A program made the position numbers and the translations under genes. The notes under the pieces were generated by a model. The model was not told the DNA's origin, did not search any database, and was given only the letters and a program-made list of their open reading frames with translations. Source: a virus. From it: a stretch of 30,798 nucleotides of DNA. Below, piece by piece: positions 1-30,798 of this stretch (position 1 is the stretch's first letter; every line of letters begins with the position of its first letter). The stretch lies in the IMG/VR virus record IMGVR_UViG_3300030329_003102, positions 1 to 30,798 of that record. One strand, given 5' to 3'.

Positions 1-103
1 AAAGTATCAGTAGTTATATCTTCTGAGGTTATAATATGTCCAAATATATCATCATCATATTGGTCAGCATTGTGTCCATATGCTTCTGTTTCTTCAACGA
101 TTA
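1..103. repeat. Terminal overlap, left copy
   Basis: Positions 6-103 are identical to 30701-30798, and 1-4 match 30696-30699. The only difference is at position 5 (t) versus 30700 (a). The most economical reading is an assembly overlap of a circular or circularly permuted genome of about 30,695 bp. A true short terminal repeat cannot be excluded from sequence alone. The reading frame of the large tail gene runs through it uninterrupted. Confidence 0.93.
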
Positions 104-2501
104 GCCAATTCGGATTAATAAATTCAGTTGTAAAATCCCAATCACTTGCATTTTTACCCATTCCCCATTCCATCTGATCATTTTCATATCTTAAATCATA
201 TAGAGATGAATATATCATTTTAAAATAAACCTCTAAAAAATTTCCTTCAAACATAGGTCTGAAACATTGGTATTTTAAATCTGGATCATTTTCTAGAATT
301 TGCCCCATTCCAGTTTCCATAGTATACAACCTATGCCACATATCAAATATTTTTTTCCAACCTAAATAAACTATATTTCTAAATGTTACATAATTTAAAT
401 AAACTGCACTGTCATCAGATATTTCTATAAAATTATTTTCCCAAGCAGAATGAATATCATTTTCTGTTGGGTAAACATTTACTACTCCATTATTATAATG
501 TATTTCTTTTAATGTAGCTTCAAATTGTTCATAAATCGTTTCAAAATCAGGGTATTCTCCATCAACTCCGAGCCATAATTGAATAGCATTATTTTGAGCA
601 TATAATAATTCTTCTAAACTTGAATCGTGAATTTCTTCTGTATAATAAAAACTATGCCTTCCAGTTACTGATGCAAATATTTCTTCATTTCTTACATCTG
701 GAATATGCACAGATTGTAAAAATCCAATATTATCCATTTTAAGTTTTTGTTTATAACTACTACCGCTATGCCTTAAATCTTTAGGGTAAAATTCAAACAT
801 TAACATATAGTCAAAACTATTTGCTGGCTCTAATAAAACTCGATCATCTGCTCCTGAATCTCCATAATATAAGCCCTGCACTTTTTTCCAAAATAAATTT
901 TCATCTGAAGATCCACCGCCACCAAAATATTTGCTCTGATAATCTTCAGTATTAGTATCTTCTAATAATAAAGGTGTATGTTTATATGGATCATTGTTAG
1001 GTGCATAATCATTTGTTACATCATCTGGGTCTTCTTGTAAATCTTCGCTTCGTTGTATTAATAACCAATTTAAAACATCTCTCCAAGCATTGTTTGTTTG
1101 ACTTGATCCAATATCTTCTAATCTTGGTTTTATTTTATCTTTCCAAACTGATGCAACTAAAGGTGCTATAAAAAAACCAGTTCCAGTGCTTGTGCTAGGT
1201 AAAGTGCTATTATTACTAGCATTATCTCCAGTAGTTATATTCCAATTACTTGCAACAAATGTATTTCCAATATATTGCCCATTAACATATAAATTTTTTA
1301 AAACATTAGTTGTTCCTCGTTCCATCTTTAATAAAAACCATCTACCCTCGCCAACATTATGATCACTAGAATTATAATTGATTACACCAGTATCTAAAGC
1401 ATTGACATAATCAGTTGTTGCATTTATTATTGGATCTGTATCTCTATACCATATTTTTCTATAACCAGCATTGTCATTTATTTTTTCAATATTTGTAAAA
1501 TTATGATCTAAAACTTCATTCACTTGTAAATTAGCAAGATCTAAAACTGATCCAGTTCCAGCTCCAACATTTTCAACCAACCTAACTGATAAACCTTGTA
1601 TATCCCATAAATTAATTCCGCTTTGCAATTCTTCTTGTATTTCAGGTAATAAATAATTAACATTATCACCAAACCTGTTTCCTACTGTTACTCTGGAATA
1701 TGGGTATGCTTGTAAATTTGCAGTTGTTTCAAAATGATCCCAGATTAAATAATCATTTTCATTTTTTATATATAAATAATAAATATTATTCATTGGTAAA
1801 TCTGAAGTAAACATTGATGGTAGTTTTGCAGTTTTATGAGTAGCAGTTGTTGGGTGAATATCTAACATTACATTCATTGTTCTATCATCATTAGGATCTA
1901 TATATGGTAATGTTGGTGATTTATCTACTTTCCCAAATACCATAGGCACCGTTAATTTATCATTATTTTTATATCTTCTTAAAACACGATCCTGAATATT
2001 ATCTGGTAATTTATCAATAGTGGTATGTGGTATTTGTTTATTTGCAATCTTTTGCTGAGTTGAATCTTCTCCTAAAATTGCAATGCTTTCTTCATTAGAT
2101 TCTAATCTAGTTATCACACCTGAAAAAATCATAGCACAATCATAATCAGTTAATTCAGAAGAAAAATTAATATTATTAGTTGAAGGCGATTTATAAAATA
2201 AATAAATCTTATTTAATATAATATCATTTAATTCTGCAAATTTATCTTTATAATCCACATAATTATATAAATCACATCTAAAGGTATTTATTTTTAATTT
2301 TTTTTGATCATAATCTGTATTTATTTTTACTTTAGATACTTTTTTAATTATAGGTAATGTAACTATATCATTTAATTTTAATCTATGTGTTGACAAACTA
2401 TGTAAAACATTATCTTCATTATCGGTAATTATTACAACTGGTATTAAAGTTTGTTCTGGTGAAATTACATCATTTTTAAATTGTTTAGAGAGTTCAAGCA
2501 A
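1..2501 (-). CDS. Giant tail hub/fibre protein, N-terminal 833 codons (continues at 30695)
   Basis: This frame is open from 2501 to the window edge and, across the terminal overlap, joins in frame with the ORF ending at 29024. The joined gene encodes about 1390 aa. The start is a TTG at 2501-2499: an in-frame stop lies at 2517-2519, and an AAGGAG Shine-Dalgarno sits six bases upstream of the TTG. The next in-frame Met is far inside the protein. It overlaps the tape-measure stop by 8 nt. Its place directly after the tape measure, its size and its mixed beta/aromatic-rich composition suggest the siphovirus tail hub, Tal or J-like position; this is inferred from synteny, not from a recognised N-terminal domain. 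A section near residues 165-200 with VPMVFGKVDKSP recalls hub-type tail proteins. The role would be at the tail tip: host binding or envelope penetration. Confidence 0.85.
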   Translation of the reverse strand, partial: MLELSKQFKNDVISPEQTLIPVVIITDNEDNVLHSLSTHRLKLNDIVTLPIIKKVSKVKINTDYDQKKLKINTFRCDLYNYVDYKDKFAELNDIILNKIYLFYKSPSTNNINFSSELTDYDCAMIFSGVITRLESNEESIAILGEDSTQQKIANKQIPHTTIDKLPDNIQDRVLRRYKNNDKLTVPMVFGKVDKSPTLPYIDPNDDRTMNVMLDIHPTTATHKTAKLPSMFTSDLPMNNIYYLYIKNENDYLIWDHFETTANLQAYPYSRVTVGNRFGDNVNYLLPEIQEELQSGINLWDIQGLSVRLVENVGAGTGSVLDLANLQVNEVLDHNFTNIEKINDNAGYRKIWYRDTDPIINATTDYVNALDTGVINYNSSDHNVGEGRWFLLKMERGTTNVLKNLYVNGQYIGNTFVASNWNITTGDNASNNSTLPSTSTGTGFFIAPLVASVWKDKIKPRLEDIGSSQTNNAWRDVLNWLLIQRSEDLQEDPDDVTNDYAPNNDPYKHTPLLLEDTNTEDYQSKYFGGGGSSDENLFWKKVQGLYYGDSGADDRVLLEPANSFDYMLMFEFYPKDLRHSGSSYKQKLKMDNIGFLQSVHIPDVRNEEIFASVTGRHSFYYTEEIHDSSLEELLYAQNNAIQLWLGVDGEYPDFETIYEQFEATLKEIHYNNGVVNVYPTENDIHSAWENNFIEISDDSAVYLNYVTFRNIVYLGWKKIFDMWHRLYTMETGMGQILENDPDLKYQCFRPMFEGNFLEVYFKMIYSSLYDLRYENDQMEWGMGKNASDWDFTTEFINPNWLIVEETEAYGHNADQYDDDIFGHIITSEDITTDT

Positions 2502-7495: not shown

Positions 7496-8481
7496 TATCT
7501 TCTAGTTAATTCTATTGTTTTGCTGGATTTATTGGTTTGCTTTCTTTGATTTCCAAAAACTTCAATTTCCCAAATATCGCCATCTGTTGCACTTGCTCCT
7601 TGAAATCTTCCATATAAGCCATTAAATATTTCTTGCAACCCTCCAGTTATTTTTCTTGTATTGCTTGTTACTCCAAATAATTTATCATTTCCGTATGAAT
7701 GAACTTTAAATGTTCCCACTCCGTAAGCACCTGAATCTTCTATTTCTATTTTAAGTAAATCATATAGTTCACCTTGATATTCTCCACCAAGTTCTACAAT
7801 ATCCATTGTTCCACTTGTATTTCTATATCTAATAGATCCTTTTTTATCATTCGCATCTGTTTCAAAAGATAATTTATAAATCCCATCATTTAATTTATCT
7901 ATAATTCCAGTTCTTTCTGAATTTGTTACTAATGCAAAATAATAATCAGCTTCTTCTGATGATCCTTCTTTAGATCTAATTATATTTGATGCTCCCAGCC
8001 AACAAGTTGCTTTTTTTATTATTGGATCGTGTTCTTCAGCTACACTAACTGCAGCAGTATTTGTATCTATTAATTTTGTTTGTTGTAAAGGTGTAGAAAA
8101 TCTAGCATCTAAATAATTATGCAACTCCATAGAAGCATCAACCAAAACTTGTTCCAAATATGAGGTATAATCTTGCCCAATTTCAAAAACTTGTTCATTA
8201 ATTGTAGTAGATGAATAATTGCTATTGTAATATTCAACCTGATTCGTAGCACTTGCATAAAACCACTCTCCATTGCTATCTACTGCTCCTGAAGATCCTT
8301 GAGCAGCAGCTAATTCTTCACCATTAACAAATAAAGTGTCTGCATAGCCACTATCTCTAAATAAATGCAAATTCCCTGATGTTAAACTAGGAAATATTTG
8401 CACCTTTGAATCAAAATCATTAACTCTGTTAAAATATTTGTGAAAATCTGAAACACTAGCGTATTTAAAATCTGAAGCCAT
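7495..8481 (-). CDS. Head-tail connector (adaptor)-like protein with inserted domain
   Basis: 328 aa. Residues 1-20 (YASVSDFHKYFNRVN) and about 105-180 (LEQVLVDASMELHNYLDARFSTPLQ, then DPIIKKATCWLGASNII) follow the gp36/DUF1320-type adaptor pattern, in which helices form the ring below the portal. Between them a beta-rich insertion of about 80 residues interrupts the usual compact protein, and a beta C-terminal domain of about 120 residues is added. It sits directly upstream of the tail terminator-like gene, as expected for an adaptor. It is twice the length of common adaptors, so the extra domains may be exposed at the neck. Confidence 0.6.
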   Translation of the reverse strand: MASDFKYASVSDFHKYFNRVNDFDSKVQIFPSLTSGNLHLFRDSGYADTLFVNGEELAAAQGSSGAVDSNGEWFYASATNQVEYYNSNYSSTTINEQVFEIGQDYTSYLEQVLVDASMELHNYLDARFSTPLQQTKLIDTNTAAVSVAEEHDPIIKKATCWLGASNIIRSKEGSSEEADYYFALVTNSERTGIIDKLNDGIYKLSFETDANDKKGSIRYRNTSGTMDIVELGGEYQGELYDLLKIEIEDSGAYGVGTFKVHSYGNDKLFGVTSNTRKITGGLQEIFNGLYGRFQGASATDGDIWEIEVFGNQRKQTNKSSKTIELTRR

Positions 8482-8491
8482 TATTTATCCT

Positions 8492-10186
8492 TTATCCTAA
8501 TAATATAAGTTGTAATTTAGCATTTTCTTTTTTATTAACACTTTTAGCAATTATAGATTCAATAGTATTTATTCCATTTACTAAATAGCTCACTCCTCCA
8601 GAATGTGCAGAATGAGATTGTCCGTAAATTTTAAATTCCGAATTAGGCAAGTGTGTAAATTCGCAATGTCCTTTCTCGTAGTCAACCCAACCAACTTTAG
8701 TTCCATTATGTAATAAATTTCCATTTCCATCATCTAATAAAAAAGCATTTATATTTGTAACCTCTTTATTTGTAGTTTTATCTTCCATAGTTTCAGGGGC
8801 TAGGCTTGATGCTGGTCCATAGCAAATTGTGTCTGTTGTTCCTCCTCCGTGATTAGATCCTTGCAATTTAGGAACTCCAGATGCTAGTGATGGAAATCTT
8901 CCAACATCAAAAGGTGTAGTTCCTGAAACATTTGCAATCCCTACTCTTGTTTCTGAATGGTTAGAATGTGATTGTATTCTTATATCACCTCTATGCAAAT
9001 TTATTGTAACTTTTTTATTTGCTAATCCACCGCTTCCATAATATTCTTCATCAAATACTGCTTGTATTTTTGGAATTACTGCATTTGAAGATCCAGCAAA
9101 TGTTGTATCACTTGAATCTGTTGTAAATGCAATAGCAGTTTCTGTAGAGGTTGAATCAATTCCTCCATTATTAAATTCATCTACTACTATGTGAAATGTA
9201 TAAGTTGTAGATGCGCTTAAGCCAGTTTTGTCAGAGGGCTTGATTCCACTCAATCCAAAATCTAAATAACCACCTTCAGAATAGAAAGGTCCAATAACAA
9301 CAGATCCGGGCACCAATCCATCAACCAAACTATCTGCAGTTCTACCATAACCAAAAAATGCACCTCTTTGCTTAAACTTTCCACTAGCATCAGTTTGACA
9401 TTTTCCCTGATCATAAGGTAAATATTCATTACCATAAAAATAATTTATTTCTTCATTATTAGTTATAGCTCCAGCATCAGTCCCTAATAATCCTCTTTTA
9501 ATATTAACCGTAGTTCCTGATACTGAAACAACTTCAACCACTTCATCAGGTGTATTGCCTAAAATTAATAAATCTCCAGTTTTAAACCAGCTACCATCAT
9601 CAACTACAAAAGCAGTTGCAGATGTATCTGAAACAGTTCCATCAATTAAAACATCTGATCCACCTGCATATGTAGTTCCAGATATAACTGCTGCTTTTCT
9701 ATATTCATTTCCACTATTAATATCTTTTGGCTCTATTCCTATTGATCCAACTGCAGCAGAAGATGCTGATTCTACAGTAGCAGCAGCATCATTATCATAT
9801 GCTACATAGCGAGAATTTGGTAAATAAATAAAATCACCAGCTGGTAATAAAGTTGATATTTTTCTTTTATTTCTAGCTTCAGTTAATCCTACATTATCAT
9901 TATTAACAACATCAACAGAGCTAGAATTTTTATAAGATTGCATAGATAAAATTAATTCAGCACATATATTTCCAGTATTTTTAATAACTAATGCTTTTGC
10001 ATTATGGGTAGTTAATGCTCCTAAATCTTTGCTAAAACTTGAAAGTGTTTGAAACCCATCACCTGATGCAGCTCCATAGGTAACTTCTTGATCAACAACA
10101 AACTGATCTGTATATGTTTTTGTTGAACTGCAATTATATGATCCATCTGCTTGTATATTTAAATCTATTGCAACTTTTTTTGCCAT
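8492..10186 (-). CDS. Large virion structural protein, fibre- or neck-associated
   Basis: 564 aa, Gly/Ser/Thr/Asp-rich and all-beta in appearance. A section near 325-350 (TGLSASTTYTFHIVVDEFN) reads like a fibronectin-type III or Ig-like strand pair. A central beta section (TAFVVDDGSWFKTGDLLILG) resembles small barrel repeats found in marine phage structural proteins. It has no Cys-rich or enzymatic motif. Located between two fibre-like genes and the connector genes. A role as a head fibre, neck whisker or side-tail fibre is inferred from composition only. Confidence 0.55.
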   Translation of the reverse strand: MAKKVAIDLNIQADGSYNCSSTKTYTDQFVVDQEVTYGAASGDGFQTLSSFSKDLGALTTHNAKALVIKNTGNICAELILSMQSYKNSSSVDVVNNDNVGLTEARNKRKISTLLPAGDFIYLPNSRYVAYDNDAAATVESASSAAVGSIGIEPKDINSGNEYRKAAVISGTTYAGGSDVLIDGTVSDTSATAFVVDDGSWFKTGDLLILGNTPDEVVEVVSVSGTTVNIKRGLLGTDAGAITNNEEINYFYGNEYLPYDQGKCQTDASGKFKQRGAFFGYGRTADSLVDGLVPGSVVIGPFYSEGGYLDFGLSGIKPSDKTGLSASTTYTFHIVVDEFNNGGIDSTSTETAIAFTTDSSDTTFAGSSNAVIPKIQAVFDEEYYGSGGLANKKVTINLHRGDIRIQSHSNHSETRVGIANVSGTTPFDVGRFPSLASGVPKLQGSNHGGGTTDTICYGPASSLAPETMEDKTTNKEVTNINAFLLDDGNGNLLHNGTKVGWVDYEKGHCEFTHLPNSEFKIYGQSHSAHSGGVSYLVNGINTIESIIAKSVNKKENAKLQLILLG

Positions 10187-12962: not shown

Positions 12963-14144
12963 TCACACCACCACCTTAAATATAGTTGTTCCTTGCTTAA
13001 TCTTGTCACTTGATTTTGCATTATAAGATTCAAGTGATTTATCTATATCATAACCTTCAGTATAATTTTGTAGATCTATTTTTATTCCATCTCTGTTTCC
13101 ATTATTATAAAATATATAGCAATTCTGTGATGCTCTACCTGATAAATTCAATGCTTTCTCGCTGTAATCATTTGCCCCTACCATTGAGCTGGATCTAGAA
13201 TAATTGTCGCCAACACGAGCCGAATGTATGTGTCCAAAAATAACATAATCAATTTTTGTTCCTCGCATCTTGTATCTTCCTACCATCTGGGTAACAGATG
13301 ATTCTATTTTTCCTTTAATTGATCCATTTCCGTGTAATACTAATAAATTTTGTCCAGCTACTTCAACTACTACCTCTGTCGGATCTCCATCAATAAAATT
13401 AATATTTGAATCTTTAAAAATATATCGTAATGTTTGAAAAATTGTAAAATCATAATTATCAGTTGCTACTAAAGGGCTCCAACCCCAATCTTTTTTAACT
13501 CTTGATTCATTACCAGTAACCATACAAACAGACACATTAAATTCTTCATTCAAATGTAATATAACTTGTTGCATAATATCAACTGCTAAAAAAGTTGCTT
13601 TAGCTCTATTAGTAGCCATTGATAATAATTCATCTAATCTGCGATCTGAATTTAATAAATCACCTGATTGCACCATCAACACATTTGTAATTCCAAATGC
13701 TTTAAAATATTTAGTCGCTTTATCTACAAACATTTTACATCTAGCAGATGCAATTTTAAAATCATATTTATTATGCTCTAAATTTACTAGTTCGTTAAAA
13801 TGCACATCGCTAAATTGTATAACACCAACTGCTTCTTTATATTCTGAATGCTTTTTAGTATATTGTGATAATTTATATGAACTAAATATATCTATTAATT
13901 TTGAACTATATTCAGAAACTGCATTTTCTATTCTTGCATATTCTCTAAATGATTTTCGTTCTATTCTATTTAGATCTTGGTAGCTTTGTTTTTGTTTGGC
14001 TAATCTAACATTTTCTTTAATTAGCCGAATATCTTCAATAGGGGCAATAGTTCTAGAGTGACAAATTTTGCATAAATATCTCTGGTGTCCTCTGTCAAAT
14101 CCACTCTTTACTAAATTGCCTGAGTGACAAGTTGGGCAATACAT
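12963..14144 (-). CDS. Calcineurin-like metallophosphoesterase with N-terminal zinc ribbon
   Basis: 393 aa. Residues 3-28 form a four-Cys zinc ribbon (C3, C6, C25, C28) of the style CPTCHS...LCKICHS, like the InsA N-terminus of IS1. After a helical linker (40-100) come the metallophosphoesterase motifs in order: SDVH (D113, H115), GDLLN (D162), TGNES (N212), HGNG (H271) and GHIH (H305, H307). These are the metal ligands of the two-metal phosphoesterase site, related to Mre11/SbcD and YfcE-type enzymes. The substrate could be DNA, nucleotide or phosphoprotein. It sits inside the lysis group rather than with replication genes, which is unexpected. Upstream and downstream starts abut its ends. 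Confidence 0.88.
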   Translation of the reverse strand: MYCPTCHSGNLVKSGFDRGHQRYLCKICHSRTIAPIEDIRLIKENVRLAKQKQSYQDLNRIERKSFREYARIENAVSEYSSKLIDIFSSYKLSQYTKKHSEYKEAVGVIQFSDVHFNELVNLEHNKYDFKIASARCKMFVDKATKYFKAFGITNVLMVQSGDLLNSDRRLDELLSMATNRAKATFLAVDIMQQVILHLNEEFNVSVCMVTGNESRVKKDWGWSPLVATDNYDFTIFQTLRYIFKDSNINFIDGDPTEVVVEVAGQNLLVLHGNGSIKGKIESSVTQMVGRYKMRGTKIDYVIFGHIHSARVGDNYSRSSSMVGANDYSEKALNLSGRASQNCYIFYNNGNRDGIKIDLQNYTEGYDIDKSLESYNAKSSDKIKQGTTIFKVVV

Positions 14145-21460: not shown

Positions 21461-22210
21461 TTATAATCCTTTGATTGGCACCTTTACTTGTGAATTTAAA
21501 ATATTATTTCGTTTATTTAAACCATTTGCTCTAGTTCCTTTATAAACTTTTGTTCCCCATTTCTTCATCATATTCTCAACAGATTGCTTTTCTTTATCCA
21601 TTGTCCTTTTACCTACTAATCCTCCACTTAATCCAGATCCGTGATAATGTTTATAATGAAATTTATTTATCCTTAAAGTTTTTCTATATTTATTTATATT
21701 TTGTAACCAAAAATCATAATCTTCTTTATATGGTATATTTTCATCATATCGTAAATCAGTTTTTAAATGAGCAGAGAATGGTGCTAGAACTGGTGATAAA
21801 AAACTAAATGGTGAATAAACTCTATAACTCATAGGATCTGCATTAACATTAATTCCCCATAACTTCACACCTAAATCTTCTGCTAATTGAAAATAATGTT
21901 TTATAATATCTTCAATTTTATCTGGATCAACTGAATGGCTTTTTCCATTTTCAAAATAGCAGATGTCAGTTATATCATCATCTACTATTAGCAACCATTC
22001 TGCTTCGCATCTATTTAAAATGCTATTTAATTTTCTGGAACTATTCCCATCTTCTTCATCTGGTATGGTTATAATATTATCATAATATTTTTCATACTCT
22101 TTTTTTTGTGATTCAGGAATCCAGATGTTTGCATTTTTAAAAATTTCTATTGATTTTACTTGTCCAGCTCTTTTATATGATCTTATTGCTATATGTAGCT
22201 TATTCATCAT
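21461..22210 (-). CDS. Glycosyltransferase, TET-associated (TAGT)-like, possible DNA base glucosylation
   Basis: 249 aa. The N-terminus (LHIAIRSYKRAGQVKS, residues 5-20) followed by IPESQKKEYEKYY and the GT-A metal-binding triad in LLIVDDDITD (D77-D79) reads like the TET-associated glycosyltransferase family that modifies oxidised methylcytosine in phage DNA. A helical C-terminal part includes HYKHYHGSGLSGG. No TET/JBP oxygenase or cytosine methyltransferase is visible in this genome, so either it acts on another base, uses a host enzyme, or glycosylates a different target. It overlaps the ParB-fold gene end and precedes the terminase. A general GT-A glycosyltransferase is the safe minimum. 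Confidence 0.7.
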   Translation of the reverse strand: MMNKLHIAIRSYKRAGQVKSIEIFKNANIWIPESQKKEYEKYYDNIITIPDEEDGNSSRKLNSILNRCEAEWLLIVDDDITDICYFENGKSHSVDPDKIEDIIKHYFQLAEDLGVKLWGINVNADPMSYRVYSPFSFLSPVLAPFSAHLKTDLRYDENIPYKEDYDFWLQNINKYRKTLRINKFHYKHYHGSGLSGGLVGKRTMDKEKQSVENMMKKWGTKVYKGTRANGLNKRNNILNSQVKVPIKGL

Positions 22211-22817
22211 CTAGTAATTTTAATAGATCTTTGCCTTTTAACACTCTGCCTAATCCTTTGCTTACTAGTTTAGCATTTGAATTTTTAACAGTTTTTAAAT
22301 CAAATAATTCATTTGCTACATTCCAATCAAATTCATTATCAAAATAAAAAACTAAATAATCGTGCCTTTCAAATATTTCTGGTGAAATTTCAATTTCTGG
22401 CTCTATTTCTTCTTCTTTATGATCTATTTTTAATTCCGATTCAGTAAATCCTATTTCAATCAATTCATCAAAATCAAAATTATTAGCTAATTCATCAAAA
22501 TTCCATTCACCAGTATTTTTATTTAACCTTACATTTAATTCTCGTTCTTTTTCATAATCAAGATTTAACTCTATGCAAGGTATTTCAGTAATTTTTAGAT
22601 CCTTAGCAATTTTAACTCTTTGGTGTCCTCCAATAATAATATTCACTCGTTCCTTGTTACTATTAATAATAATTGGATCAACTAAACCAAATCTTTTTAT
22701 GCTATCTCTTAAATTTTTGTATTGATCTTTTGTTAATTGGCGTGGATTATATTCTGCTGAAATTAGATCATCAGCATTTTTTAAAACTATTTTATATTTA
22801 TTTTTATCATATTTCAC
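22200..22817 (-). CDS. ParB/Srx-fold protein (ParB-like nuclease domain)
   Basis: 205 aa. Residues 10-110 form a ParB N-terminal domain: NPRQLTKDQYKNLRDSI (24-40), GLVDPIIIN (44-52) and the nucleotide-binding GGHQR (63-67). The C-terminal half is acidic, then ends with a KGLGRVLKG-type basic tail. No helix-turn-helix centromere-binding domain is present, so this is not a partition ParB. Such stand-alone ParB-fold proteins occur in phage next to DNA modification genes. The start is GTG 22817, in a 44-nt AT-rich gap with no clear ribosome binding site. It overlaps the glycosyltransferase, suggesting functional pairing. Confidence 0.85.
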   Translation of the reverse strand: MKYDKNKYKIVLKNADDLISAEYNPRQLTKDQYKNLRDSIKRFGLVDPIIINSNKERVNIIIGGHQRVKIAKDLKITEIPCIELNLDYEKERELNVRLNKNTGEWNFDELANNFDFDELIEIGFTESELKIDHKEEEIEPEIEISPEIFERHDYLVFYFDNEFDWNVANELFDLKTVKNSNAKLVSKGLGRVLKGKDLLKLLDDE

Positions 22818-27278: not shown

Positions 27279-28373
27279 TTAGATCTGTTCGGTTAGTGAG
27301 ATTTTAAAATTATATAAATTGGGAGTTTTCTGTGTTACTTGAAATTTGTCCATTCTTACTATTGCCCAATTACTTGGCGATTTATCATTTTGATCAATGC
27401 ACATAACCATTGGTAAATGACCGCCCATAGTCATTTTTACACAATTTGTATAAAAATCAACTCCATTATATGCATTATATAAACTAGATTCACCATCAGC
27501 ACCAGTAGAATGGTTATCTTGTGCAACATAGCCATTGCTATTTAGCATCATATTTTGAGATGTTACATATTTTGGTAATAAGCTTGTAAAATTAATAGCC
27601 CATTTTCTTCTTCCATTTCTTCTAAACGGATTATCTACATTTTCACTACCTAATCCAAAAGGCTCTGTTATCCAATTATCTGGTTTATTCCAATGTGATG
27701 AGCTTATTGTTTTTCCTGAAATTGATTTTTTTGTTTTATTCCCATATTCAAAATCTACTTTTGTATTTAGTTCGCAATTTTGAGGCAGATCAAAATATTT
27801 TCCAAACATTAAACTGCCGATTTTTACTGGTATATCATTAGTTAAATCTTGTTTTTTTAATCGTAAACCGATCCATTTAGATTCAATAGATGGTTGTTCT
27901 GATATTTTCCAACAACTCCAGCCATCATAGCTGGGCACAGAATTATCACTTGTATAATTTTGTATTGTTTCAGATCCTATGGTCAAAGCATTTTCACCAG
28001 TTAATGTTGCATCATTTAATTCATTCCACGATGTTATCCAAGTACTTGTACTAGCACTATTTAAATTATGTCCTAACAACATTGCATAACTATTATCTGC
28101 ATTAAAAACTAAATTTGGATCATTTTCATAATCATATGTAAATGAATCTGGCAAAATTCTCCAACCTAACCAATTATTAGTTGCTGGCATTTCAATCTCC
28201 ACCTGATCTGATGGATCTAAAATTATTAATTTATATAATTGATCATCTGTTAAATTTTCTACACCCTCAATATAATTTCTAACTCTATTCAAGCCTCCAC
28301 TTGCATATAAAAATAAAGGATAAGATGTGTAAAGTCTTGGTTTAGTAACTATTTGGTGATGTCCTTGAGCCAT
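27279..28373 (-). CDS. Distal tail/tail-tip-like protein
   Basis: 364 aa, last gene of the late transcript. A C-terminal section reading GRRKWAINFTSLLP (about 255-268) follows a SGKTISSSHWNKPDNW segment; both recall a repeated motif (GRR.W...FS.L) of marine phage tail-tip proteins. Abundant Trp and Asn. The start at ATG 28373 (GAAGG upstream) overlaps the previous gene by 32 nt. A Dit-like or receptor-proximal baseplate role is inferred from motif and position. Confidence 0.55.
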   Translation of the reverse strand: MAQGHHQIVTKPRLYTSYPLFLYASGGLNRVRNYIEGVENLTDDQLYKLIILDPSDQVEIEMPATNNWLGWRILPDSFTYDYENDPNLVFNADNSYAMLLGHNLNSASTSTWITSWNELNDATLTGENALTIGSETIQNYTSDNSVPSYDGWSCWKISEQPSIESKWIGLRLKKQDLTNDIPVKIGSLMFGKYFDLPQNCELNTKVDFEYGNKTKKSISGKTISSSHWNKPDNWITEPFGLGSENVDNPFRRNGRRKWAINFTSLLPKYVTSQNMMLNSNGYVAQDNHSTGADGESSLYNAYNGVDFYTNCVKMTMGGHLPMVMCIDQNDKSPSNWAIVRMDKFQVTQKTPNLYNFKISLTEQI

Positions 28374-29022
28374 TTGTGCCTTCTTTCCTTGTTAATTTTT
28401 TTTCTTTATAAACTATTAATTCATCTCCGCTTTTAGTATAAACTTTTTTTGTTACCAGATCCACAAAATAAAAACCAACATAATTAGCCAAATTCGTTGC
28501 TTTTTTAAATTCATTGCCCTTTGTATATAATCCTGATAATTTGCGATGCATTGGTCTTTTTTGAGGTTTTTTATTAGGAATTAATTTGGGATTAGATACT
28601 AATTCAGCAGTTCCAGCCTCTTTATCAAATTCATATTTAGTATTTAAATCAACTATATCATCGTTTCTGCCTTCAAATTCATAATCTTCCCAATTCAGAG
28701 TCATATCTTCCCAATTTGATTCAATGCTATTCCACATCTGCAAAGCTTCTCTATTTATTTTTAAATTATATTTTTTCTTTGCTGATCTAGTAACTAGTTT
28801 TGCTTTTGTAATTACTGCAGATCCAAAATAATTAAATAGATCAATTATAATTTCTGATCTAGTATTGATCTTTAAAATAATAATTTTATTTCTTCCTTGC
28901 GATATTAAATAATCTTCAGGTAATAAACTTTCAATAGATAAATTGCCAATATATTCTAATTCTAAGCCATAAAATTCAATGTCTGTTTCTATAACAACTT
29001 TATTTTTTAAAATTTTTATCAA
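28342..29022 (-). CDS. Tail-tip associated protein of unknown function
   Basis: 226 aa. Starts at TTG 29022, six bases after AGGAG and one base past the stop of the giant tail gene. The first half is beta-rich (IETDIEFYGLELEYIGNL); the middle is acidic with repeated NWEDY-type Trp motifs; the C-terminus is basic. Its place between two tail-tip genes suggests a baseplate or fibre component. Not recognised. Confidence 0.6.
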   Translation of the reverse strand: MIKILKNKVVIETDIEFYGLELEYIGNLSIESLLPEDYLISQGRNKIIILKINTRSEIIIDLFNYFGSAVITKAKLVTRSAKKKYNLKINREALQMWNSIESNWEDMTLNWEDYEFEGRNDDIVDLNTKYEFDKEAGTAELVSNPKLIPNKKPQKRPMHRKLSGLYTKGNEFKKATNLANYVGFYFVDLVTKKVYTKSGDELIVYKEKKLTRKEGTNGSRTSPNSY

Positions 29023-29023
29023 A

Positions 29024-30798
29024 TTAATCTCCTAAAACATAGCTCACCAAAGCAACTGCATCAACAACATTTATAGCATCATAATCATTGTTAGTAAGTT
29101 CTCCAGTATTTAAATTAATATTATTTATTCTATCTTGTTCTGATGCGGTTAAATATTCTATTCCAACTATATGATTTACTACTCGTATTATATCAACTAC
29201 ATTTATTATTCCATCAGCAGTAATATCACCATATGCAATTTCTAGATCATTATGAACATTTGCTAGAGCATTATAATTCCAATTAGGCAAAGGGCTTCCA
29301 TTTCCAGATAATAATGATGAATGATATTGATTCATATTGCCCACTATATCATAATCAGATCCATATCCGTGATCACCATCTACGCCTAAATAATGTAATT
29401 GATAGGCTTTTATTTTTATTTCTTTTTCACTAATATCTGTGCTCATTACCAACCATAATGGGTAAATAGCTTGTCCATTTAAATAACTTACTTTGCTATA
29501 ATCCATTCCATAAATTCTCTCATTATTAATTAATGGTATATGAATTTTATCGCCAACCATAATATCAATATAATTTAATGGTAATGTAAGATCTATAATA
29601 TTATGAACATTACACTCATTTAATAATTTATATTTTTGAAATTCTTCAACCGTTTCATTTTCTGTATGGTATCTTAATTCAAATTCTTTATAGCCATCAA
29701 CATTTTGCTCTAAGCCATAATATTCATAACCATTATAATCATAAATCAAATCTTCTATATTAATTTTATCGGAAGCCATTGGGTAATTGTCATTTCCATT
29801 ATCATATCTGTAAAACATTTTGCAAGAGGTAATAATATCTTCTACTTTAGTTTTGCTCATTTTATATCTTAAAATATGATCTTCATTAATAACTCTATCT
29901 ATATCATCTTCTGTATATTTTTCATTAATAGTAATCAAACCAAATTTTCCAGTTCCAGTAAATTTAGGGTATGATTTTGTTTCTTGTAAAAATTCTTCTA
30001 ATAATTTTAAGCTATCAATTTTTTCATTTATTGCAAATCCCATTTTAAAATTACTATGTGCTGATCTGCTTTCTTCAATTGATTTAGTATCAAATTTTGT
30101 ATAATCTGGATAAACATTAAATGTCGTTAAAATGTCTTGAGCCTCGTGCACTCTACCATAGCCTAATTCAAAGGTCAATAAATTTATTACAATGTCAGCT
30201 GGTTTATCAATGATCCCATCAGTTTGCAGAGTAAATGATTCTAATCCCATTATTTGTTGGCTCCATACCGCAGCCAAAGATGAATCATATAAATCTATAT
30301 GTTCATCACTTTCATTATTATGCAACCAACCAAATAAACTCCTATTATCAGTAATAAAAGAATGCAGCGGTGGTGCATATACAGTTTCTAATATATCAGC
30401 CCAGACACCTGCTCCCAAATATTCAGTTTCTCCAGTTGGCTCACTCCATTCACTCCAGCCGACAATATTTCGTATGCTAGTATATATAGATGCATTAAAA
30501 CCGTAAACCATTTGATCTACTATATGCCTTACTGCACCTAAGTAATCGTAATCATTTATTAAATTACCAACCTGAAAAGATCCAATTGGTGAATAGCCTA
30601 ATAAATAAGCCAATAAATTGAACTGCCCACTCATAAGCTGATCATATACCCCCAGAAATGGTATCCCACCAAATTGGTAAAACGGATCACAATTAAAAGA
30701 ATCAGTAGTTATATCTTCTGAGGTTATAATATGTCCAAATATATCATCATCATATTGGTCAGCATTGTGTCCATATGCTTCTGTTTCTTCAACGATTA
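29024..30798 (-). CDS. Giant tail hub/fibre protein, C-terminal part with dockerin-like module
   Basis: This is the downstream part of the gene that begins at 2501; the frame is open through the terminal overlap to the window end, so ATG 30634 is internal. Residues in the middle (about 965-1130) alternate helices and strands in the style of a tail hub. The final 70-75 residues are dockerin-like: GDITADGIINVVDIIRVV carries the 12-residue calcium loop D-x-T-x-D-G-x-I-N-x-x-D, and a second repeat ending AINVVDAVALVSYVLG keeps INVVD but has a degenerate loop (Thr and Tyr in place of Asp). Dockerins bind cohesins or act as surface modules; in a tail protein this could mediate attachment or complex assembly. 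Total length about 1390 aa. Confidence 0.85.
   Translation of the reverse strand, partial: IVEETEAYGHNADQYDDDIFGHIITSEDITTDSFNCDPFYQFGGIPFLGVYDQLMSGQFNLLAYLLGYSPIGSFQVGNLINDYDYLGAVRHIVDQMVYGFNASIYTSIRNIVGWSEWSEPTGETEYLGAGVWADILETVYAPPLHSFITDNRSLFGWLHNNESDEHIDLYDSSLAAVWSQQIMGLESFTLQTDGIIDKPADIVINLLTFELGYGRVHEAQDILTTFNVYPDYTKFDTKSIEESRSAHSNFKMGFAINEKIDSLKLLEEFLQETKSYPKFTGTGKFGLITINEKYTEDDIDRVINEDHILRYKMSKTKVEDIITSCKMFYRYDNGNDNYPMASDKINIEDLIYDYNGYEYYGLEQNVDGYKEFELRYHTENETVEEFQKYKLLNECNVHNIIDLTLPLNYIDIMVGDKIHIPLINNERIYGMDYSKVSYLNGQAIYPLWLVMSTDISEKEIKIKAYQLHYLGVDGDHGYGSDYDIVGNMNQYHSSLLSGNGSPLPNWNYNALANVHNDLEIAYGDITADGIINVVDIIRVVNHIVGIEYLTASEQDRINNINLNTGELTNNDYDAINVVDAVALVSYVLGD
30696..30798. repeat. 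Terminal overlap, right copy
   Basis: Repeats 1-103 with one substitution at 30700, which changes Thr to Ser in the tail protein. Removing one copy leaves about 30,695 bp of unique sequence. The mismatch may be population variation or an end-of-contig error. Confidence 0.93.

Follow-up and report, generated by a model that had tools for sequence, protein, structure and literature searches.

Question raised by the locus

Cohesin-dockerin pairing is known from cellulosomes. The locus described here raises the question of why the tail-tip protein of a virus should end in a dockerin, and what that dockerin would bind. The window (the whole stretch of 30,798 nucleotides analysed here) had a preliminary description made from its letters alone, which proposed a dockerin-like module at the end of a 1390-aa tail-tip protein. 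We analysed the record, the carrier protein, the module, its relatives in other phages and the dockerins and cohesins of a candidate host phylum.

Genome record and hub gene

The contig ends of IMGVR_UViG_3300030329_003102 overlap by 103 bp, near-exactly, with one mismatch at the edge. Because this overlap is common to both ends, the record, and with it the window, is circular; it comes from a siphophage. A minus-strand ORF with its stop at 29024 runs off the contig with an open 5′ end. Joined across the contig ends, it is one protein of 1390 aa; the length given in the preliminary description is correct, and is valid only when the frame is read in this way. The N-terminal ~200 residues of the hub are kept in relatives. 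The hub gene comes after the tape-measure gene, and terminase, portal-like, capsid and tail genes were found elsewhere in the record. The hub gene and the genes that follow it are listed below.

29024..30796, minus strand: C-terminal 590 residues (801-1390) of the hub gene; open 5′ end, continuing into 3..2501 in the joined 1390-aa frame
3..2501, minus strand: N-terminal part of the hub gene, TTG start; ORF open at the contig end, joined via the terminal overlap
28342..29022, minus strand: next gene, 226 aa, in synteny in relatives whether or not they carry the dockerin
27279..28373, minus strand: following gene, 364 aa, a structural protein, in synteny in both kinds of relatives as well

The Pfam search gave no match for the 226-aa gene, and none for the 364-aa gene. 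Three other proteins of the window were annotated. The protein at 21461-22210 matches a PHROG of beta-glucosyl-HMC-alpha-glucosyltransferases (1.8e-17) and adjoins a ParB-like/methyltransferase-type protein at 22200-22817; DNA or surface modification is a possible function of these two genes. The protein at 12963-14144 strongly matches a phage exonuclease family (phrog_284, 1.3e-59) and has a cysteine-rich N-terminus with CxxC.

Tail-tip hub core

The core of the carrier protein is located as follows.

29363..30241, minus strand: hub core, residues 986-1278, lambda gpJ / T5 pb3-type fold (30-member alignment A2; PF13550 in relatives; AlphaFold2 and Foldseek)

The core has 22–56% identity to cores in other viral contigs. 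Phage-tail_3 (PF13550) was matched by 14 of the 30 members of the core alignment, and Pfam gave no PF13550 match in the window's own hub sequence. The AlphaFold2 model of the core had a pLDDT of 87.7. Foldseek aligned this model with the tail tips of phages Chi, JBD30, lambda, T1 and T5 (E 4e-10 to 7e-7). By its predicted fold, the 1390-aa protein is a gpJ-type central tail-tip hub, which supports its earlier naming as a tail-tip protein.

Lambda gpJ ends in an Ig-like domain that binds the receptor LamB, and this C-terminus determines host specificity (PMC11101478). By position, and by analogy with lambda, the C-terminal region of the window hub is inferred to choose the receptor.

Dockerin module at the hub C-terminus

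The C-terminus of the ORF reads ...YGDITADGIINVVDIIRVVNHIVG, then a linker, then ELTNNDYDAINVVDAVALVSYVLGD and the stop. The module runs in the order DITADGIINVVD and helix, linker helix, ELTNNDYDAINVVD and helix. Its features are as follows.

29027..29272, minus strand: dockerin-like module, last 82 residues (Dockerin_1 14.8 bits; Neomarinimicrobiota profile 43.9 bits; PDB fold matches)
29246..29287, minus strand: PNWNYNALANVHND segment directly before loop 1, common to L006, L200 and L010
29192..29227, minus strand: calcium loop 1, DITADGIINVVD (sequence; conservation in 57 modules)
29168..29200, minus strand: helix of the first F-hand (AlphaFold2 model, module residues 25-35)
29060..29101, minus strand: degenerate loop 2, ELTNNDYDAINVVD, with a two-residue insertion (alignment A6)
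29036..29068, minus strand: C-terminal helix of the second F-hand (AlphaFold2 model, module residues 69-79)

Ligand position 3 of a dockerin loop is usually N or D. Loop 1 (D-I-T-A-D-G-I-I-N-V-V-D) is near-canonical and fits the F-hand pattern D-x-[ND]-x-D-G-x-x-N-x-x-D except for the T at this position. Loop 2 is degenerate, and most relatives fit the pattern at both loops. Across the alignment of 57 modules, D is invariant at loop positions 1 and 12, and D at position 5 is present in at least 90%. One canonical and one degenerate loop, each followed by a helix, had been read from the letters; this reading stands, with the T in loop 1, the insertion in loop 2 and both helices present in the AlphaFold2 model.

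The PNWNYNALANVHND segment looks like the NYNPxA..DDGSC repeats adjoining dockerins in other hubs, and it retains a short NWNYNALAN stretch of the GCTD..NYNPxA..DDGSC-type look. Repeats of this type accompany the dockerin in the hubs of L010, L033, L009, L050, L190 and L202.

The preliminary description had suggested a search with Dockerin_1 and a structure model with which to check the module. The Pfam profile (PF00404) did match the module, weakly (E = 0.035), and the score of 14.8 bits did not reach the gathering cut-off of 22.9. Taken alone, this E value would leave room for the view that the tail, hydrophobic and rich in aspartate, looks like an EF-hand by chance. A profile built from 27 Neomarinimicrobiota dockerins only gave 43.9 bits on the 82-aa tail, whereas shuffles of the same residues (n = 2000) reached at most 13.1 bits. 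Dockerin_1 is matched by homologous tails of this hub with E values down to 5e-15, and conserved relatives of the window tail include that of L006 (43% over 86 residues). The AlphaFold2 model of the module had three helices and a pLDDT of 78.5. All 26 PDB chains matched by this model at E ≤ 10 were dockerins, with a probability up to 1.00 and a best E of only 0.04 for this short module. The alignment behind the model was dominated by better-conserved dockerins, so the fold is a sign of compatibility more than independent proof. Given the shuffles, the homologues and the fold, chance similarity is scarcely credible and was ruled out.

By profile and predicted fold, the window module is a divergent dockerin at the protein end, as had been proposed; calcium and cohesin binding are inferred. 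A lack of any profile match, a fold without paired F-hands or a plain coiled tip would have refuted the proposal, and none of these was seen. The degenerate loop 2 and the score below the cut-off may mean that binding by the window module is different or reduced.

Recurrence in related hubs

Among 57 related phage tails, 54 matched Dockerin_1 at E ≤ 0.01 (best 5e-15). The alignment of the 57 phage modules also gave a profile match to solved type I dockerins (best 2e-10). A loop-only DNA pattern matched 52 of 2.9 million viral contigs, and most had the motif in a homologue of the window hub. Core-only scans with two subfamily profiles found 100 distinct complete hubs. Dockerin loops followed the core in 77 of them (two or more loops in 59, one in 18), and 23 had no loop by the pattern. 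The pattern overlooked at least one visible dockerin case (L182). Since the query cores had been taken from hubs with a dockerin, the 77% cannot be read as an unbiased prevalence. The protein ends with the dockerin pair in most members, mostly as its last ~57 residues. The region before the pair is often variable and without a clear Pfam match, and one such region is weakly Ig-like. None of the 50,697 GenBank phage records matched the tested hub ends or the module, and thus no cultured host could be read from them.

Two hub homologues (L018 and L037) carry the dockerin pair near the N-terminus (residues ~130-190 of 880), not at the C-terminus. A hub clade (L163-L169, L174-L179) has no dockerin, and several of its members end in another domain with an HMKIGxEW..VERGxxGT motif.

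In the hub-core tree (FastTree, 131 cores), the dockerin trait needs ~8 changes, compared with 20.7 with shuffled labels. L001-L003, close relatives of the window, end before the module. They cluster with the window, L006, L200 and L201, and loop 2 is degenerate in these four dockerin-bearing hubs. The short ends of L001-L003 could suggest that the module is a recent add-on of the window phage; this was set aside because L001-L003 nest inside dockerin-bearing hubs. For the same reason, L001-L003 have probably lost the dockerin, an inference that rests on the FastTree topology only. The dockerin is not essential to the hub, since L001-L003 and about a quarter of the core-found hubs are without the module.

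These data bear on a structural role. The dockerin might be a cap at the C-terminus, stabilised by calcium and acquired from host proteins, that binds no cohesin and instead helps the hub tip to fold, trimerise or resist proteases. EF-hand-like domains can serve structurally, and in the window, L006, L200 and L201 the pattern is kept with a degenerate loop 2. However, most of this divergent family has both loops well conserved, hubs without a dockerin exist, and the same tag co-occurs with cohesins in Neomarinimicrobiota. We regard such a cap as rather improbable.

Search for cohesins in phage records

In 32 long phage records, Dockerin_1 was found above the Pfam cut-off in 27, always in the hub gene. 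An extra, weak match below the cut-off was present in a 340-aa frame of record G253. Pfam detected no cohesin in any of the 32 related phage records, the window included, which extends the earlier remark that no obvious cohesin was visible in the window.

This result weighs on the possibility that the dockerin is an internal assembly joint, binding a virion protein with a cohesin-like fold missed by profiles, through which a side fibre or cap would be joined to the tail tip. Dockerins are protein-assembly plugs, and the variable regions between core and dockerin, without a clear Pfam match and in one case weakly Ig-like, could hide cohesin-like virion folds. Apart from the missing Pfam cohesin, two observations speak against a joint: relatives with a dockerin and relatives lacking it have the same two genes after the hub, and the modules resemble host dockerins and form no distinct phage-only class. 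We consider it unlikely.

A dockerin pair was also found outside the hubs. At 7674-9023, L054 has a gene for a trypsin-like protease (Trypsin 2.7e-60), predicted to be a lipoprotein, that also contains a dockerin pair (Dockerin_1 36.5 bits). L054 is a T4-like viral contig with a RecA/UvsX-type protein, a gp43-type polymerase, a sliding clamp-like protein and a ribonucleotide reductase. Dockerin proteins homologous to this protease occur in six more contigs (L016, L017, L029, L038, L040 and L055).

Likely host

Neomarinimicrobiota (SAR406) is an uncultured ocean phylum. When GTDB genomes were scanned with the phage modules, the best 79 matches listed were mostly loci of Ca. Neomarinimicrobiota. 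In many Neomarinimicrobiota relatives among the matches listed, the dockerin pair is the last ~56 residues of the protein. Dockerin-tailed secreted proteins number up to 46 per genome in this phylum. To avoid the bias of a pattern search, phylum profiles were built from Dockerin_1 matches of Neomarinimicrobiota, Bacteroidota and Bacillota-type (the phylum of Pelotomaculum) genomes. For 109 phage modules, the best-scoring profile was that of Neomarinimicrobiota in 95, the Bacillota-type in 14 and Bacteroidota in none. The comparison covers three phyla only, with fewer than 30 sequences per profile. It had been suggested that the module was perhaps taken from the host, and the likeness to Neomarinimicrobiota dockerins is in line with this. 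The G+C content of the phage loci averages 31% (~30-31%), and several Neomarinimicrobiota loci have 27–30%.

Hub homologues were found in 4 of 245 Neomarinimicrobiota genomes (best 7e-53), compared with 1 of 296 Bacteroidota genomes (4e-16). The four homologues are distant and all without a dockerin; they are therefore weak host evidence only. The 245 Neomarinimicrobiota genomes yielded no phage whose hub ends in a dockerin. The window terminase was tried as a host indicator and dropped, as it is too widespread. Neomarinimicrobiota are probable hosts, inferred from sequence comparison and not shown.

Cohesins of Neomarinimicrobiota

A search of candidate host genomes for cohesins and related dockerins had been proposed for this locus, and in Neomarinimicrobiota it found both. 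Cohesin (PF00963) was present above the cut-off in 82 of 149 genomes, in addition to the many dockerins described above; pairing of these cohesins with phage dockerins is inferred. One kind of cohesin protein has ~182-211 aa with a signal peptide and a lipobox cysteine (L285, L307, L317 and L318). Another has ~271 aa and consists of a signal peptide, a cohesin and a T9SS C-terminal domain (L288, L289 and L290). The lipobox and the T9SS domain were recognised by eye, without a predictor, and on this basis both kinds are predicted to be surface-anchored on the cell envelope. Relatives of the T9SS cohesin occur in genomes with 46, 37, 14 and 5 dockerins, compared with a median of 1 in the other 57 sampled (Mann-Whitney P = 0.001, uncorrected for relatedness of the genomes).

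Cohesin domains of the phylum are also found within large multidomain secreted proteins. The phage dockerin could accordingly serve in a reversible search step, binding soluble or matrix-bound cohesin proteins (on particles or other cells, for instance) and not a receptor on the host cell. The small lipoprotein cohesins and the T9SS-anchored cohesins are predicted on the cell envelope, which argues against this, and we think a search step of this kind very unlikely.

The gene immediately before the ~182-199-aa cohesin lipoprotein in L285, L307 and L317 belongs to one recurring family that looks CsgG-like by eye; in these three genomes, the pair is possibly a conserved operon. In six loci of the phylum (L236, L238, L239, L254, L270 and L274), proteins have a dockerin pair followed by a recurring 'DGFIGGVQMTLSH..' domain, cohesin-like by eye. 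The data also point to a surface-docking system in Marinimicrobia, where one genome of 1.8 Mb encodes dozens of dockerin proteins; we found no paper on this system in the open-access literature.

Proposed mechanism

In the mechanism that we propose, secreted proteins of Neomarinimicrobiota would bear a dockerin pair at the C-terminus, and the cohesins of these bacteria would sit on the cell envelope, as predicted. The phage hub would bear the same C-terminal dockerin at the place where gpJ has its receptor-binding domain. At adsorption, the hub dockerin would dock onto the host surface cohesins. With a host-type dockerin at this place and no cohesin in the phages, docking on host cohesins is the simplest reading. 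We think it somewhat probable that the window encodes a gpJ-type hub of an uncultured marine siphophage with a Neomarinimicrobiota-type dockerin docking onto host surface cohesins. The wider claim is evenly poised in our judgement: that a marine siphophage lineage replaced or capped the receptor-binding tip of gpJ with a host docking tag and infects Marinimicrobia via host cohesins, with cohesin and dockerin as a virus-receptor pair. There are no binding or structural data, and the exposure of the dockerin and cohesins at the surface and the role in adsorption are inferred, as is the identity of the host.

If the mechanism is true, viruses too use cohesin-dockerin pairing, as the contact with their receptor. 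Candidate receptors for phages of an uncultured ocean phylum would then be the small lipoprotein cohesins and the T9SS-anchored ones, and the dockerin would be a sequence tag linking uncultured marine phages to Neomarinimicrobiota.

Comparison with known systems

Hub and dockerin are each members of a known family. What appears new is that they are combined, that the combination recurs widely and that it implies a receptor of this type; no description of any of these was found in the open-access literature, the only literature searched. A plausible case can be made for a new type of virus-receptor interaction. Dockerins are mentioned for two other phages, and neither mention concerns the feature described here: in E. 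coli phage HSE2 it refers to a carbohydrate-binding-module structure (PMC5967307), and in VvAW1 it is a blastp remark on another gene (PMC3558961).

The window hub resembles lambda gpJ and T5 pb3 in its core fold and in having a C-terminal extension past the core. It differs from lambda gpJ in that the C-terminus is a dockerin, and other members have variable regions between core and dockerin.

The module shares with type I cellulosome dockerins, such as that of a Clostridium thermocellum xylanase (PDB 1ohz), the paired F-hand loops and helices and the C-terminal placement. Its predicted fold has a TM-score of 0.86 to this dockerin (normalised to 1ohz_B). In contrast to cellulosome dockerins, it is carried by a virion tail-tip hub without a cellulase or scaffoldin context, and its loop 2 is degenerate. 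Loop positions 10-11 of the phage set are mostly hydrophobic (VL/IL), unlike those of cellulosome type I dockerins.

The L054-type protease has the same dockerin pair in a phage genome, but it is a predicted secreted protease of a second, unrelated phage kind and not a virion hub. The dockerin-tailed secreted proteins of Neomarinimicrobiota likewise have the dockerin pair as their last ~56 residues, and the profile of this phylum scores the phage modules best; the carrier is cellular there, whereas here it is a phage hub.
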